Source: Shewanella violacea DSS12
Lineage (GTDB): Bacteria; Pseudomonadota; Gammaproteobacteria; Enterobacterales; Shewanellaceae
Reading direction: 5' to 3'
Assembly: GCF_000091325.1 (NCBI RefSeq)
Contig: NC_014012.1
Coordinates: forward strand, 2,088,823-2,152,822
DNA length: 64,000 bases
Below the pieces are notes generated by a model. The model was given only the letters and a program-made list of their open reading frames with translations, did not search any database and had not been told where the DNA came from. Numbering within the stretch: position 1 is the first letter of the stretch; the number at the start of each line of letters is the position of its first letter. Below, one piece after another: positions 22,248 through 29,280 of the stretch. The position numbers and the translations under genes were made by a program.

Positions 22248-24644
22248 CTATGATTTTATATAAGGCAATGAAACCAAGATCTCTACGCCTGAACTGACTA
22301 ATTCTGCGCCAGATTTACTGTTTGTGGCAGGCGTCTGTAGATCTCTTGCCTTGATGGAACCTTGGTGGAAATCAGTGATAAGCCTAGCGATATAGAGTCC
22401 TAAACCTAAATGAGGCTTATCTTGGGCCTTCTGTCGGCGTACTGAGACCATAGATTCGAATATTTGCTCTGCCATTTTCTCAGGTAATAGAGGACCGAAG
22501 TTCGAAATGGTCAGTTCTGCGTGCCTGTGCTTGGCCGTTAAGGTGACTGTGATGGGGGTATTGTCGGTACTGAATTCTAACGCGTTGGCAATCAGCTTAT
22601 CCATAAGCTGAGCGATATACTCGGGCACACCACTCATGGTTAAGGGGTCTTGTGTGACACAGACTTGAAACTCCTGGTCGGGATAGGTGAGCTGATAACC
22701 TTGCATACAACCCGAAATAACCTTGGACAGAGGAAATATGTCTACTTCCGCTTGAGATAAACTCTCTTCCAGACGTGTGGCTTCGCTCATATTATTGAGG
22801 ATCATATTGAGTCTGCTAACGCCTTCTTCCGCCCGGTCCACATATTTTCGGGTGTCAGGATCTAATTGTTGCAGGCTCAGATGCTCAAGTGAAGAGCGCA
22901 CTACGGCCACTGGGGTTCTCAATTCATGAGATAAGCGTGCAGACATATTCTCCAGATAATGTGTGTATTGGCCCAGACGGCCGACAATGTTGGCGAAACT
23001 TCTAGAGAGATCGCCAATTTCATCTCTGACTTCAGAGCCTTGAATGATTTTTCTAATCCTACCTTGGCTGTCGATGGCTTCTTCGGTTTCATCCCTGAGT
23101 TTTCTTATCCTGCTGGATATACTGGAAGCGAAAAAGAACAGGGCTAAGGTGCCCATGCTCATGATAGTCAAGATGACGTTAAATAATTTCTCCAGCGCCT
23201 TGTTACGCAGGGTTCGGATGCCATGAGTGGTTTCTTCGGCGATGACTACACCCATGACCTTATCGTCAATCCAGATAGGGCTGGCCGCTGCCAATATGAC
23301 GGCTTTATTGTCCGGGGTGAGGCGCCAGGTGGAACCTTGTTTGCCGGCTAGTGCATTTTTTATGTGGCTACCTTCGAGCACTGTTGAGTCCTGCAGGGAG
23401 TCGATAAAATCTTTAGGTGGTGTGGTTAAAATTTTATAATAGAAACGATGCAGGTAGTCCCGCTTAAAATGTCCCCAGAACGAATCATCGGTTTTTTCTT
23501 GGACTGTTTGGGTCCAGACACTTCTACTTGTTCGAATGTCACCGGACTTGGCTAATACTCGTCCATGTTTATCGACCACCCAAATACGCGAACTGTTATG
23601 GCTCATCCCCTTGATGATGCTTTCTATTTCTGGAGAAGGAACCAGCACAGTCCCTAAATTTTTAACATCATCGATAGCGGACGTACCGACAATGGCGTCC
23701 AGAATGCGCGTCTTGTTATCATTGACATCATAGATAGCGAAACCCAGTTTGCTACCAACCATATCCAAGGGCATGCGTATCTCGATGTTGTAACCGACCT
23801 TGGTTTTGACCCACTTTCCCTGAATTTTAAGCTCAGGAGTCACAGGCATCGTTTTTTTAGGGTCTTGGGGCAGCTTATATGAACTCACCCAACCCTCTCT
23901 TTGGGTGGCGATGATATAGCGTTTGAATTCGCCATCGGGGGCCAATGTGGCTATGGTGAGGTGGTCGTTGACATCGATCTTGAGACTGTTAGTGCCACGA
24001 TAGATCACACTTGGATCTGTCACTTCGAAGAAGGCGTAGAGGAAACCTGCATATTTCCCCACCATATGATTGAAACTAATGGTTAATGGGGCGTCGGCTG
24101 AACGTTTAAAGATCTGATGGTTTTCGCCATAACTGATGCTTCTGTGGCGGTAAGAGGCCCAGTCGTTCAGCTTACCATCGAGTTGAATGGCTCCGGCTAA
24201 AGGATATGCATACAGATCGCGTCCCTGTTCTACCTGAGTAAGAAAACTGGCTTGCAAGTCAAAAAGGCTAGGGCGTTCATGTAGCGCAGTAGCCAGTGCC
24301 TGTGTGGTGCCTTCGAGTGTTTTCTCTTGACCGTATCTTAGGTATTTTTCCATCTCCCACACATATTGATAGCATAACCAGGGAAGGCAAAGGAGAAACA
24401 AAGATAAAATAGCGACTTTGGATCTTAGGCCTATGGGTGGATTAAATTTAGATAGCTTGTGTTTCAGGCTCAAAAAAAGGTCGGTCAGCCTGTTAGCTAT
24501 TTTATAGAAGCTGCTCGGGGTTATCTTAGTCAGTTTTTCGGTTAACCAGGCCCAATATCTAGCTATGCCATTTTTAGTCTCGCTAACGATGAGGAAAGCA
24601 TACATAGAGGCTTTAGCTCTTATGTCCAGAAGGCGATATAACAC
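22248..24644 (-). CDS. pdsS: dedicated sortase system histidine kinase PdsS
   Basis: A 798-residue membrane sensor kinase. In order: about 70 cytoplasmic residues, a membrane helix (about 76-94), a large periplasmic region (95-485), a second membrane helix (about 487-508), HAMP, a HisKA domain with His573 in SHELRTP, and a HATPase with N-box ALEFS and G-box HLGLGLY. The periplasmic part begins IQLDGKLNDWASY (154-166), the opening phrase of CBM9/DOMON-like folds, so it may bind a sugar or cell-surface polymer; that is inference. The arrangement matches kinases found with the marine proteobacterial sortase. It is transcribed with the regulator gene, 52 bases upstream. The GTG start is uncertain. 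Confidence 0.9.
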   Translation of the reverse strand: MLYRLLDIRAKASMYAFLIVSETKNGIARYWAWLTEKLTKITPSSFYKIANRLTDLFLSLKHKLSKFNPPIGLRSKVAILSLFLLCLPWLCYQYVWEMEKYLRYGQEKTLEGTTQALATALHERPSLFDLQASFLTQVEQGRDLYAYPLAGAIQLDGKLNDWASYRHRSISYGENHQIFKRSADAPLTISFNHMVGKYAGFLYAFFEVTDPSVIYRGTNSLKIDVNDHLTIATLAPDGEFKRYIIATQREGWVSSYKLPQDPKKTMPVTPELKIQGKWVKTKVGYNIEIRMPLDMVGSKLGFAIYDVNDNKTRILDAIVGTSAIDDVKNLGTVLVPSPEIESIIKGMSHNSSRIWVVDKHGRVLAKSGDIRTSRSVWTQTVQEKTDDSFWGHFKRDYLHRFYYKILTTPPKDFIDSLQDSTVLEGSHIKNALAGKQGSTWRLTPDNKAVILAAASPIWIDDKVMGVVIAEETTHGIRTLRNKALEKLFNVILTIMSMGTLALFFFASSISSRIRKLRDETEEAIDSQGRIRKIIQGSEVRDEIGDLSRSFANIVGRLGQYTHYLENMSARLSHELRTPVAVVRSSLEHLSLQQLDPDTRKYVDRAEEGVSRLNMILNNMSEATRLEESLSQAEVDIFPLSKVISGCMQGYQLTYPDQEFQVCVTQDPLTMSGVPEYIAQLMDKLIANALEFSTDNTPITVTLTAKHRHAELTISNFGPLLPEKMAEQIFESMVSVRRQKAQDKPHLGLGLYIARLITDFHQGSIKARDLQTPATNSKSGAELVSSGVEILVSLPYIKS

Positions 24645-24696
24645 AAGCGATACTCTTTATTTAAACATTATCAGCGGCTTGAATATTCAGCCGAGT

Positions 24697-25389
24697 TTAC
24701 CCCTGTGGGTCCCATCGATATCCCATACCATAAACTGTATCTATGCAGTCGAAATCTGAGTCGAGAGCTAGGAATTTCTTACGGATCCGTTTCACATGGG
24801 AGGTGATGGTGCTGTCATCGACGAAAATCTTCGCTTCCTGCATCAATTCTTGTCGGTTTCTCACATGACCCGGGCGTTTCGCCAGTGCATGCACCATCCA
24901 GAATTCCGTCACTGTGAGTTCGATATGCGTCTTGTTCCAATACACTTGCATGCGGTTGATGTCGATAACCAGTTTATCTCTTTCTAGTAGGTTTTCATCG
25001 GACAGCTCTTTACCTTGCAGCTCTGCACGGCGAAATAGGGCTGCTAGTCTGGCAATTAGGTGTGGGAAGCTGACATCTTTACTCAGGTAATCATCGGCGC
25101 CCAACCTGAGTCCGCAGACGGTATCAAAATCACTGTCTCTGGCGGTTAAAAAGATAATGGGCAGATTACTCGACATGGCCCTGAGGGACTGACAAAGGGT
25201 AAATCCACCGTCAATTTCATCCTCGAGTCCGATATCTATGATTGCCAGATCCGGGAGACGAGTCATAAAAGCCTGCATAGCCGTAGGACGATTAGCATAG
25301 GCTTGGACACTGTAGCCTTGCTGTTGCAGTACTTCTTTATAGTTTTCGCGAATGGCGACTTCATCTTCAACGATGGCGATGCGTTTCAT
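24697..25389 (-). CDS. pdsR: dedicated sortase system response regulator PdsR
   Basis: A 230-residue OmpR/PhoB-type response regulator. The receiver domain has the acidic pocket VEDE near the N-terminus, the phospho-acceptor in LAIIDIGLED, and conserved LTARDSD and SKDV (Lys). The C-terminal winged helix ends with TSHVKRIRKKF and DTVYGMGYRW. I start at the ATG at 25389, with AAAGG 9 bases upstream; a TTG three codons earlier is an alternative. It is the likely partner of the adjacent kinase and is divergent from the OmpA-like, substrate and sortase genes that it presumably controls. Confidence 0.92.
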   Translation of the reverse strand: MKRIAIVEDEVAIRENYKEVLQQQGYSVQAYANRPTAMQAFMTRLPDLAIIDIGLEDEIDGGFTLCQSLRAMSSNLPIIFLTARDSDFDTVCGLRLGADDYLSKDVSFPHLIARLAALFRRAELQGKELSDENLLERDKLVIDINRMQVYWNKTHIELTVTEFWMVHALAKRPGHVRNRQELMQEAKIFVDDSTITSHVKRIRKKFLALDSDFDCIDTVYGMGYRWDPQG

Positions 25390-25398
25390 GACTCTCAA

Positions 25399-25659
25399 CC
25401 TTTAAAATCAATTATCGTAACTGAGTTAATCGATAATCGTTCGGCAACTTACTCTAGTGCCGGTGAACCCTGTGGAGTGTGACTATACAGTAAAACAACA
25501 AGGTAAAAAGCCCACTTAAGCGATTGCCTTTTTGTTGCCACAATTGATACCCGCATTGCCATTTTTTATCCCCGTCAAAGTCATCTCTATGGGTTTTAAT
25601 CTTCATATTGAATTGAAGCGCAGTTAACTCCTCGCTCAGTGAACACCTAAATAAGGTTA
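25399..25659. promoter_or_regulatory. divergent promoter region of the sortase locus
   Basis: This 260-base gap separates the regulator-kinase genes (-) from the OmpA-like, substrate and sortase genes (+), and should hold both promoters. I see no clear direct repeats of the kind bound by OmpR-type regulators, and no small gene with a ribosome site. The role is inferred from position only. Confidence 0.45.
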
Positions 25660-25680
25660 ATGACAGTAGGGATGAATAAA

Positions 25681-26418
25681 ATGAACAAGCAACTGATAGC
25701 CGCATTAGTGATGAGCTCATTAACAGTGTCGAATATGGGCTATGCATCAGAGATTGAAAATCCCAGAGAGCACCAAGAAGAGTTGATCGGCGTGGGCTCT
25801 GGAATATTTCTTGGCGCCGTAGTGGGCGGCCCCATTGGCGCTATCATAGGGGCGTTTACCGGAGGGATTATCGGTAAGTTGGTTGGAGATGATACTGAGA
25901 TGGAATCTCAACAGCTAAAGTTAACCGAGCAAGCATCCACCATTAACCTGCTTAATGAAGATAATCAGTCACTGGCGATCATCTCTAATCAGTATGAGTC
26001 GCTGCAAGATGAACTGACCGAACTCAGATTGGCTAGGCAGCAGAAATTGACCGAATTAGAGCTGGGCTTAAATATTCAATTTAAGACAGGTTCCTCTCAG
26101 TTAGAGACACATTTTCAGCCGCAATTGGATGAACTCGCGAGTGTACTGCGGATATCTAATGACCTTAGATTAGATCTCATGGGATATGCCGATCGACGGG
26201 GAGAGTCGACTTACAATCAGGCTCTGTCAGAGCAGAGAGTTGCCGAGGTAAAGAGCTATCTACTCACTAAGGGAGTGGATGAGAAAAAGTTAGCTGCGAG
26301 TGCCTATGGTGCTAGTGCTCCGCTAACTGCTGAGCAGAGCTTTGAGAATGACTTCTTCGATCGCAGGGTCACGATTAGATTTGTGTCACAAGATACGACC
26401 CTTGCTGCCAATCATTAA
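25681..26418 (+). CDS. pdsO: sortase-associated OmpA-like protein PdsO
   Basis: A 245-residue exported protein. The signal peptide (MNKQLIAALVMSS to GYA) is followed by a glycine zipper (GIFLGAVVGGPIGAIIGAFT, about 40-59). A coiled-coil stretch rich in Gln and Leu follows (about 78-125), then an OmpA C-terminal peptidoglycan-binding domain (LMGYADRRGESTYNQALSEQ, about 160-180). This domain set is that of the OmpA-like member of dedicated sortase loci. In-frame ATGs also occur at 25660 and 25672; I chose 25681 for the signal peptide and the AGGG site 10 bases upstream. It probably tethers the system to peptidoglycan. The next gene starts 29 bases later. Confidence 0.88.
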   Translation: MNKQLIAALVMSSLTVSNMGYASEIENPREHQEELIGVGSGIFLGAVVGGPIGAIIGAFTGGIIGKLVGDDTEMESQQLKLTEQASTINLLNEDNQSLAIISNQYESLQDELTELRLARQQKLTELELGLNIQFKTGSSQLETHFQPQLDELASVLRISNDLRLDLMGYADRRGESTYNQALSEQRVAEVKSYLLTKGVDEKKLAASAYGASAPLTAEQSFENDFFDRRVTIRFVSQDTTLAANH

Positions 26419-26446
26419 TCGGTTTTCATTAAAAAGGAATATAAAG

Positions 26447-28690
26447 ATGAGAACAGGTTCGGGTCTAGATAATGTAAGTGTCCAAGCCCCTCTGATGAGG
26501 AGAGTTCACTTTGCCATATCCGGGATAGCCATAGTGCTGGCATCTTGGATAAATGTGGCACAAGCCTTAGATGCTGTTGAGATAACTCATGGGAGTTTTG
26601 TTTATCATAGCCAAGAAGAAAATAAGCCTCAGGTGGCACAGCCGCTTAACACAGATGTACAGATGAAGGTTTCTGGCTGGATTAATCGGGTCACAGTCAC
26701 CCAGACATTCAGGAATGAGAGTGATTATTGGCTCAATGGCAGCTATTTATTTCCCTTGCCTAATGAGGCTGCCGTGGATCATATGCGCCTGATTGTTGGG
26801 AAAAAGATAATAGAGGGTCAAGTTAGAGAGAGAGAAGAGGCAAGGAAGCAGTTTCAACTGGCTAAGTCTAGAGGTCAAAAAACCAGCCTAGTAGAGCAAT
26901 CTAAGCCTAATATCTTCACCACATCTGTTGCTAACTTAGGCCCAGGTGAAACCTTAGTGGTACAGATAAGCTATCAAGAGCTGGTGAAATATGACAAAGG
27001 TGAGTTTAGCCTCAGATTTCCTATGTTCGTTAAGCCTAGGTACGAGCCAAAAAATCTAGAGGGGAAGGATGATTCCTATCCCTCTACAGAGACAATATTG
27101 GCACAATTTGTTGATTTAAGTTACGGCTATGGAGAGCACAGAGCCCCAGGCTCTAAAGTGAACATAGAGATCGATCTTGATGCTGGCGTAGCGCTCAGTG
27201 AGATAACCAGTGTTTACCATGATATTGATAAGCACTTAGTTACCCATAACCGATATGATCTCAAGTTAGTCAGTGATACGCCAGCCAATAGAGATTTTGT
27301 TCTCAGATGGACACCGGTTTCCGGCAGTGAGCCCGTTGCGGCTATCTATACCCAGCAAGGCCAAACTCATAAGGAAGCAGACAATTCAAAAGAGGCCAGC
27401 GACTATGCACTACTCATGTTGATCCCACCTGAGATCGGGGCGAGCAGCGTAATAGCCAGAGACTTGATACTCGTTATCGACACCTCGGGTTCCATGTCTG
27501 GAGAGGCGATAGTACAAGCTAAGAAGGCCATGGGCTATGCATTAGCCGGATTAGGGGCGCGTGACAGCTTCAATGTGATAGCGTTTAATTCAGATGTACA
27601 CGCCTTATCTGCACAGTCTCTTGCTGCCACGGCAAAAAATATCGGTAGGGCCAATCAGTTTATACGCACCTTAAAGGCCGATGGTGGCACAGAGATGGGC
27701 CCTGCACTGACTCGTGCGCTCGATAATGGCAATCACTCGACTTCTCACCAAGATGAAGAAGATTTTGATTCAGACGGTGTTCGTTTGAAGCAAGTATTGT
27801 TTATGACAGATGGGGCTGTGGCGAATGAGCGAAGTTTGTTCAATCTTATTGAGGATAAAATAGGTCATTCTAGACTGTTCACCATAGGTATTGGCGCGGC
27901 GCCTAACTCTCATTTTATGGAGAGAGCGGCTGAGTTTGGTAAGGGAACTTTCACTTACATTGGCAAGCTAGGTGAGGTGCAGCAGAAAATAGAATCCTTA
28001 CTGTATAAGATTGAGCATCCTCAAGTCACAGATATTGAGCTGCACTATGGCGATGGGACGATTCCCGATCATTGGCCGATCAGTATCCCAGATCTGTATG
28101 CTAATGAACCTCTGTTAGTTGCGATAAAAATGCGCCCCAAGATATACCAGGCTTCGGCCTCTGAGTTAATCGTATCGGGCATGATAGGCGATCAAGATTG
28201 GCATAGCAGCTTGCCCCTTAATGAGCGTAAATCTGCTGCCGGTTTAGATCTTGTTTGGGCCAGAAAGCAGATAGCCGCATTGGAAATGAGTAAAGATGGG
28301 GTTAATCAGGCTAGAGTAAAAAAGCAGGTGACGGCGTTAGGACTCAAATACCATTTGGTGAGTCAGCATACCAGCTTAGTAGCGGTTGAGACCAATTCTG
28401 CCGTGGTGTCAAATTATGCAAGTATGGTGCAAACTACGCCATTTGGCTGGCAAGCCCCAGTGGGCTACTTGCCTCAGACCGGTGGTGAGAGCCGCTTGTT
28501 GATCATGATGGGCATGATTTTACTGGGCTTAGGTTTAGCTTATCTGGCAAGCTTTGGTCTTGATAAGGGAGCAGGCCTTAGACAGGGTATTAGTTTACTT
28601 ATACAGAATAGGTTGAAAAAGGCGTCAATTCAGACAAGAGGCGACTATGGCGACTATGTACATGTGCCAACCAAAGATCTGGAGTCATGA
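26447..28690 (+). CDS. marine proteobacterial sortase target: VIT/vWA protein with LPQTGG signal
   Basis: A 747-residue surface protein, the substrate of the downstream sortase. A hydrophobic N-terminus (to about residue 42) is followed by a VIT domain (about 45-170, with the SVxxxFxN-like VTQTFRNESDYWLNGSYLFP). A von Willebrand A domain has an intact metal site, DTSGSMS (Asp345, Ser347, Ser349). The sorting motif LPQTGG starts at Leu675, followed by a 22-residue membrane helix and an unusually long 42-residue tail. I start at the ATG at 26447, with AGGAAT just upstream; the frame extends 35 codons further into the preceding gene. The vWA/VIT pair suggests metal-dependent adhesion or binding. 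Confidence 0.92.
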   Translation: MRTGSGLDNVSVQAPLMRRVHFAISGIAIVLASWINVAQALDAVEITHGSFVYHSQEENKPQVAQPLNTDVQMKVSGWINRVTVTQTFRNESDYWLNGSYLFPLPNEAAVDHMRLIVGKKIIEGQVREREEARKQFQLAKSRGQKTSLVEQSKPNIFTTSVANLGPGETLVVQISYQELVKYDKGEFSLRFPMFVKPRYEPKNLEGKDDSYPSTETILAQFVDLSYGYGEHRAPGSKVNIEIDLDAGVALSEITSVYHDIDKHLVTHNRYDLKLVSDTPANRDFVLRWTPVSGSEPVAAIYTQQGQTHKEADNSKEASDYALLMLIPPEIGASSVIARDLILVIDTSGSMSGEAIVQAKKAMGYALAGLGARDSFNVIAFNSDVHALSAQSLAATAKNIGRANQFIRTLKADGGTEMGPALTRALDNGNHSTSHQDEEDFDSDGVRLKQVLFMTDGAVANERSLFNLIEDKIGHSRLFTIGIGAAPNSHFMERAAEFGKGTFTYIGKLGEVQQKIESLLYKIEHPQVTDIELHYGDGTIPDHWPISIPDLYANEPLLVAIKMRPKIYQASASELIVSGMIGDQDWHSSLPLNERKSAAGLDLVWARKQIAALEMSKDGVNQARVKKQVTALGLKYHLVSQHTSLVAVETNSAVVSNYASMVQTTPFGWQAPVGYLPQTGGESRLLIMMGMILLGLGLAYLASFGLDKGAGLRQGISLLIQNRLKKASIQTRGDYGDYVHVPTKDLES

Positions 28691-29280
28691 GACGCTCGAG
28701 GGGCTGGCGTATAGGCCTCTGCAGCACTGTCATATTGACCGGAGTGTTACTCTTGGCACAAGGCTCATATATGCAGGCTAAGGCCTATTTCGCACAATAT
28801 CTCATTGAGCAAGCTTGGCGACAAACCTTAGAGGATAAACAACCCCATAAACCTTGGAGTTGGGCCGATACCTATCCTGTGGCAAAAATGACCTTGATGA
28901 CAGCAGATGATCTAGCGCTGGTAGACAGCACATTCTATGTATTGTCTGGTGCATCGGGGAGGAATTTAGCCTTCGGGCCAACTATGGTACAGGGTGGAGG
29001 CTTGCTGACCCAAGGGGGAAACAGGATCATAGCGGGTCATAATGATACGCACTTTTCTGTGCTCAATGGGATTAAACCAGGACGGGTGATAATATTTCAA
29101 GACGCAAATAAACAAAAAAGACAGTACCGAGTATCTTCAACCCAAATAGTACACGAAACTGACAATAGTGCACTTATGCCAAGCTATTATGATCAACTGA
29201 CCCTGATAACTTGTTATCCATTTAATGCGCTACAAACAGGCAGCTCATATCGACTCATAGTGAGGGCGCTGCCTGTATAG
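28687..29280 (+). CDS. class GN sortase (marine proteobacterial type)
   Basis: A 197-residue sortase, a transpeptidase that cleaves between Thr and Gly of an LPxTG-like motif. The N-terminus is a membrane anchor (about residues 8-26). The catalytic residues are in place: His118 in AGHNDTHF, Cys176 in TLITCYPF and Arg189 in SYRLIV. Class GN is the Gram-negative class that typically occurs with one dedicated substrate. The start codon overlaps the stop of the substrate gene (ATGA), so the two are translationally coupled. The stop is only 10 bases from the convergent diguanylate cyclase gene. Confidence 0.94.
   Translation: MRRSRGWRIGLCSTVILTGVLLLAQGSYMQAKAYFAQYLIEQAWRQTLEDKQPHKPWSWADTYPVAKMTLMTADDLALVDSTFYVLSGASGRNLAFGPTMVQGGGLLTQGGNRIIAGHNDTHFSVLNGIKPGRVIIFQDANKQKRQYRVSSTQIVHETDNSALMPSYYDQLTLITCYPFNALQTGSSYRLIVRALPV

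Follow-up and report, generated by a model that had tools for sequence, protein, structure and literature searches.

In textbooks, sortases are the enzymes that anchor the surface proteins of Gram-positive bacteria. In a search of limited scope, the open-licence literature yielded no account of a sortase role inside a Gram-negative envelope, and its titles and abstracts revealed no recognisable experimental work on class GN sortases. The closest described arrangement is the proteobacterial dedicated sortase system (TIGR03784, TIGR03785, TIGR03787, TIGR03788 and TIGR03789). Here we analyse a five-gene locus of this kind in a window of 64,000 nucleotides from Shewanella violacea DSS12 (NC_014012.1, positions 2,088,823 to 2,152,822; unlabelled coordinates below are those of the window). 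The locus is well preserved and belongs to a known system, little studied so far, that has already been named and is partly in print (available passages of PMC3237569). All five proteins exceed the cut-offs of the respective families, as in the described system, from which the present picture differs in that it shows two apparently separable modules with a shared regulator box and a sorting signal wider than LPXTG. Added here are the division into modules, a box that recurs at some separated operons, a predicted sensor of the carbohydrate-binding type (CBM9) and a second sortase-substrate pair.

The five reading frames are present at the positions and on the strands given in the initial annotation, which had also proposed the profile searches that now place each product in its family. 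The minus strand encodes a sensor histidine kinase (marine_sort_HK; 22248..24644, a frame of 798 amino acids; TIGR03785, 1069.6 bits against a cut-off of 612.2) and a response regulator of the OmpR/PhoB type (marine_sort_RR; 24697..25398, with the likely start at ATG 25389; TIGR03787, 412.7 against 335.7 bits). Divergently, on the plus strand, follow PdsO (25660..26418; TIGR03789, 273.4 against 152.2 bits), with a signal peptide recognised by eye, a glycine zipper and an OmpA-type domain (PF00691, PF13441), the sortase target protein with VIT and vWA domains (26447..28690; TIGR03788, 708 against 551.65 bits; PF08487 VIT, PF13768 VWA_3), and the class GN sortase (28687..29280; TIGR03784, 220.3 against 158.25 bits). 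The frame of the target opens at TTG 26342; ATG 26447, with AAGGA ahead of it, appears to be the more likely start. The Pfam domains of the kinase (HisKA, HATPase_c), the regulator (Response_reg, Trans_reg_C) and the sortase (Sortase) agree with the family calls. The catalytic residues His118, Cys176 and Arg189 of the sortase, correctly identified in the initial annotation, are invariant in all 99 class GN sortases and all 7 sortases of a second type (see below) that were aligned, a set in which at least one genome is counted twice (L075, L107). The claim of an intact vWA metal site stands for the D-x-S-x-S motif, whose first residue is number 380 in the target frame of 782 residues. The overlap of the target stop and the sortase start in ATGA (28687..28690, plus strand) is real as well, and the same overlap is found in 35 of 97 target-sortase loci, the window included.

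Comparison across genomes suggests that the locus combines a self-standing regulatory unit (kinase, regulator and PdsO) with an optional anchoring unit (target and sortase). Two samples were used, 203 genomes of the class, S. violacea included, and 60 genomes of the genus Shewanella; a sortase match was counted at E up to 0.001, and families were called by the curated NCBIfam cut-offs. In the class sample, 24 genomes encode an over-cutoff kinase and 10 of these, nine of them at least 90% complete, have no sortase match; therefore, the kinase, the regulator and PdsO cannot be regarded as dedicated to a sortase in the strict sense. The description of the locus as a complete five-gene dedicated unit is thus borne out for family membership and for the tight target-sortase pair but not for the five genes as a fixed unit. 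Five of the loci that were fetched (L128-L132) encode kinase, regulator and PdsO together, with no target or sortase within 12-17 kb. The genus sample contains an over-cutoff kinase in 58 and a sortase match in 56 of the 60 genomes; three genomes (G018, G027 and G057) have the kinase with no sortase match, G026 has neither, and G050 lacks an over-cutoff kinase and has a sortase of the second type as its only one (L006). The anchoring unit also occurs by itself: three Bowmanella loci and L075 encode target and sortase but, over about 16 kb, none of the other three proteins, and in G198, G104 and G199 the target-sortase pair is located away from the kinase-regulator-PdsO genes (the sortase locus of G198, L107, shares its target tail with L075).

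Several Shewanella loci show departures of their own. In G018 (L125 10935-16259) and G057 (L126), which have no sortase match, about 6 kb lie between the regulator and PdsO genes; the idea that a different anchoring system has taken over from the sortase was considered and rejected for the insert of G018, the only one read, which encodes two large proteins of the secreted type with no sorting signal discernible by eye. In G027 (L127 5514-6369), the target and the sortase are shortened to 202 and 96 residues, respectively, and the sortase lacks the His region, with PdsO, regulator and kinase unshortened, pointing to either a joint loss of the target-sortase pair or an assembly fault.

The distribution of PdsO bears on what the sortase joins its target to. 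Location of pdsO between the regulator and the target, as seen in those Shewanella and Pseudoalteromonas loci that were fetched completely, would be expected if PdsO itself were the acceptor and a covalent target-PdsO conjugate were formed. Yet PdsO is over its cut-off in only 6 of the 203 class genomes, namely in 4 of the 31 with a sortase match (8 further sortase genomes have long sub-cutoff matches, E <1e-33) and in two, G163 and G257, with none, and there is no PdsO nearby in the Bowmanella loci. On this distribution, PdsO was rejected as an obligatory acceptor, and it makes a conjugate with it very improbable altogether.

The two modules appear to be tied together by a shared regulator box. 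After their own families, the kinase and the regulator are closest to CreC and CreB, from which they differ by the CBM9 insert and by the lack of the repeat TTCAC-N6-TTCAC, which we take to be the CreB box: this repeat is found in none of the 60 regulator promoters gathered (one of which, L136, belongs to another regulator), so it was set aside. Direct repeats were therefore counted without prior bias in 31 diverse promoters, hand-picked with near-identical ones thinned out. A TGGCA direct repeat with an 11-bp period is present in 14 of these, while none of 20 shuffles gave more than 2, and TGGCAA-N5-TGGCAA with up to 2 mismatches is present in 20 of the 31, compared to 35 of 1550 shuffled promoters. 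In the window, the box ATCAATTGTGGCAACAAAAAGGCAATCGC, a direct repeat of (T)GGCAA with the same period, occupies 25520..25548 on the minus strand, between the divergent regulator and PdsO genes, and scores 42.2 with a matrix whose training set includes it.

The strongest indication that the sortase operon is under the control of the two-component system comes from genomes in which the operon is separated from the regulator, that is, where the target-sortase pair lies apart from it, in most of 11 genomes on a different contig of a draft assembly. An earlier matrix, applied to 15 target promoters, contained regulator sites of some of the separated genomes, and a new matrix with 14 linked loci as its sole training set took its place; G190, G074, G249 and G147, which have no full-length kinase hit, were left out of the test with the retrained matrix, and G157 was unscored. 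The box is found ahead of the separated target in 5 of the 11 genomes (scores 15.4, 20.1 and 18.2 in Bowmanella, 23.0 in G198 and 17.1 in G199), in each case above all 200 shuffles (p 0.005, the floor of the test) and always in the same orientation, facing away from the target. The regulator promoters of the same five genomes score 35.4, 28.1 and 28.1 (Bowmanella), 32.2 (G198) and 10.6 (G199), and the genomes of Bowmanella and of L075 carry a 67%-identical regulator elsewhere. Box status at target and regulator is concordant in all 11 genomes, the dividing score of 10 having been set after the scores were seen. The shared box supports genuine co-regulation of the sortase operon, with the regulator putatively binding the TGGCAA-N5-TGGCAA repeat; both the binding and its direction are inferred. 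The box offers a direct test of this regulation.

Apart from the late choice of the dividing score, several observations weigh against such control. In the other 6 of the 11 genomes (G104, G237, G245, G143, G202 and G161), neither the target nor the regulator promoter exceeds 6.5, with a best target p of 0.05 (G202), and the five positive genomes fall into 3 lineages, with Bowmanella accounting for three of these genomes. Under the earlier matrix, no box was seen at the target promoters of G190, G074, G249 and G147, although the contig start leaves little of two of these promoters. The regulator of B. denitrificans might be only about 24 kb from the target-sortase pair, if the contig numbers agree. 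Other Shewanella, in a search of 10 genomes, have extra box-like sites, including a second exact one in G002, and G053 has 5 sites against 8 in its control. Finally, most sortase genomes of the class sample have either no PdsO, which is assigned here to the regulatory unit, or only a weak match to it. In the S. violacea genome itself, there are 7 sites with up to 2 mismatches compared to 1 in the reversed control, and, in support of the box, only the promoter of the locus has 0-1 mismatches; a wider regulon was set aside.

In the sensor of the kinase, a Cache domain is predicted to be interrupted by a CBM9-like module (residues about 139-336 of the kinase; 23637..24230, minus strand). The structure-based comparison of the predicted model assigns the insert to the CBM9 fold, and the Cache part resembles the sensors of WalK and CitA; WalK-type systems are thus similar in this part and differ by the insert. 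The initial annotation had found no established signal for such systems, and this question now gains a candidate answer, since a carbohydrate module modelled within a Cache domain plausibly reads a glycan. The predicted fold narrows the ligand to a class worth trying.

Target and sortase are closely coupled. In the class sample, the target is over its cut-off in 29 genomes and a sortase match is present in 31, of which 27 are over the cut-off; all 29 genomes with an over-cutoff target also have a sortase match. The 2 sortase genomes with no over-cutoff target, G091 and G236, both encode sub-cutoff class GN sortases. That of G091 (L238 4898-5542) has no target gene beside it, and that of G236 (L239 6063-6713) is located where the contig ends, so that its upstream neighbour is unseen. 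Three places in the S. violacea genome exceed the LPXTG_anchor cut-off, namely the target, the substrate of the second sortase, and an internal site of a repeat-rich frame of 1221 amino acids where the match starts at model position 9, beyond the motif; the model is short, passing in 9 of 14 control genomes, and further substrates may be missed. The proposal of one enzyme for one substrate may fit the sortase of the window, but the genome holds a second sortase with a substrate of its own. The genome additionally encodes a VIT-vWA paralogue (G000:C1:2434937-2436613; L109 880-3183) that scores 236.8 bits, below the cut-off, and has no C-terminal sorting signal by eye.

The sorting signal LPQTGG (28469..28486, plus strand; residues 710-715 of the 782-residue frame) precedes a hydrophobic stretch and a long tail, and the initial reading of it is upheld by an LPXTG_anchor score of 19.7 against 15.9 bits. 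It is not the commonest signal of the target family. In 97 target tails (93 distinct), read by eye because the automatic parse misplaced a few, the residue after Thr (or Gly) is A in 40, D in 33, G in 21 and S in 2, the broken frame of L024 having none; 31 of the 33 tails with D are from Pseudoalteromonas. In addition, A replaces Pro in 8 of 96 tails and G replaces Thr in 2 of 96. Relatives of the target below its cut-off have different C-termini. In one of them (L117 1730-4240, from G091), a VIT-vWA protein ends in an OmpA-type domain instead of a sorting signal. The VIT protein model of the system of XrtN, an exosortase, is likewise named for a sorting enzyme and matches three target relatives weakly (TIGR04477, 19.7-22.8 against 250 bits). 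GlyGly-CTERM is over its cut-off in 2 of 5 tails, L119, which is also above the Synergist_CTERM cut-off and with the better E-value, and L123; it is below the cut-off or unmatched in L120, L121 and L122. PEP-CTERM tails suspected by eye in L111 and L114 were dismissed, the profile giving 9.1 against 16 bits for L114 and nothing for L111. The rhombosortase/GlyGly-CTERM system shares a target-type cargo with the present one and differs in its enzyme, which belongs to a superfamily other than that of sortases; the swap of GlyGly-CTERM, PEP-CTERM and LPXTG in the VIT-vWA target family is already in print, and the OmpA-type fusion is absent from the passages at hand (both as far as the available part of PMC3237569 goes).

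The reading that we favour, with about even confidence, is that the class GN sortase anchors the target to the cell wall and that this anchoring unit is optional and controlled, via the repeat, by the separable unit of the CBM9-Cache kinase, the regulator and PdsO. The target would be exported through a Sec signal and fold in the periplasm, with the helix after LPQTGG keeping it in the inner membrane, where the sortase is probably held by an N-terminal membrane helix recognised by eye. The sortase would cut after Thr through Cys176 and hand the target to an amine, most likely the diaminopimelate side chain of a peptidoglycan precursor, and the VIT-vWA protein would thereby become wall-bound in the periplasm. 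PdsO, of the OmpA type and probably wall-binding, would be switched together with the target-sortase operon by the neighbouring two-component system, whose sensor probably responds to a glycan. Peptidoglycan is favoured as the acceptor because of the OmpA-type fusion in L117, the presence of the OmpA-type PdsO in the same regulatory unit, and the diaminopimelate amine that is at hand in the periplasm. Characterised sortases are known to use amines of wall precursors or pilins, which, along with the wall-directed domain that takes the place of the signal in L117, renders rather unlikely the chief rival, in which an aminolipid, for instance phosphatidylethanolamine, is what the sortase attaches to the target, leaving it lipid-anchored and perhaps carried to the cell surface. 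What argues for a lipid, and thus counts against wall anchoring, is the GlyGly-CTERM tail of L119 and L123, within the family-wide swap already mentioned (PMC3237569), combined with the finding that VesB of V. cholerae, a GlyGly-CTERM protein and rhombosortase substrate, carries glycerophosphoethanolamine (in the accessible portion of PMC6219818). The isolated Bowmanella pairs indicate that no linked acceptor gene is obligatory, in line with a sortase that acts only as a protease, water taking the acyl-enzyme and the VIT-vWA protein being freed as a soluble protein into the periplasm. Such release is improbable, however, given that target relatives keep other anchors, GlyGly-CTERM or a fused OmpA-type domain, a pattern that anchoring fits better.

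Outside the window, the S. violacea genome encodes a second sortase with an LPKTA substrate (L003 7823-9202, G000:C1 about 2485822-2487201; sortase L003 7823-8629, match at C1:2486257). Class D sortases are the next-best profile for the window sortase, which exceeds the general TIGR01076 and the TIGR03784 cut-offs, and the best for the second, which exceeds TIGR01076 only; both remain below the class D cut-offs (61.5 and 115.4 against 165 bits for NF033746, 65.1 and 129.2 against 140 for NF058671). Directly after the second sortase gene is encoded a protein of 178 residues that ends in ELPKTA, a helix and RRRG, and that has no match to any NCBIfam or Pfam model; its structural model (mean pLDDT 74.6) gave no fold match with E <0.001. 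The two genes are together in all 8 second-type Shewanella loci examined (L003, L004, L006, L007, L018, L022, L032 and L240), and no box scoring at least 9 is found near the second sortase in the seven loci scanned. A search for homologues of the second substrate found 44 clusters, some of them named LPXTG cell wall anchor domain-containing protein; the 36 that were aligned all conserve P, T and A of LPKTA as well as two Cys. In the class sample, S. violacea is the only one of 203 genomes with this pair. The 178-residue substrate is much easier to approach by acceptor mass spectrometry than the 747-residue target.

Because the modules are separable, the 'dedicated sortase' names of the kinase and regulator families mislead in genomes that have no sortase. 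More broadly, and with somewhat less than even confidence, we propose that the system might be an autonomous envelope-glycan switch, in which the CBM9-Cache kinase would read a glycan and, through TGGCAA-N5-TGGCAA, turn on the wall-binding PdsO and, where owned, a sortase that welds the VIT-vWA protein to the envelope; a separated sortase operon can carry its own box. Some Shewanella own in addition the second LPKTA pair of an unnamed family and, if this proposal is correct, covalent anchoring in Gram-negative bacteria would therefore be more diverse than catalogued.

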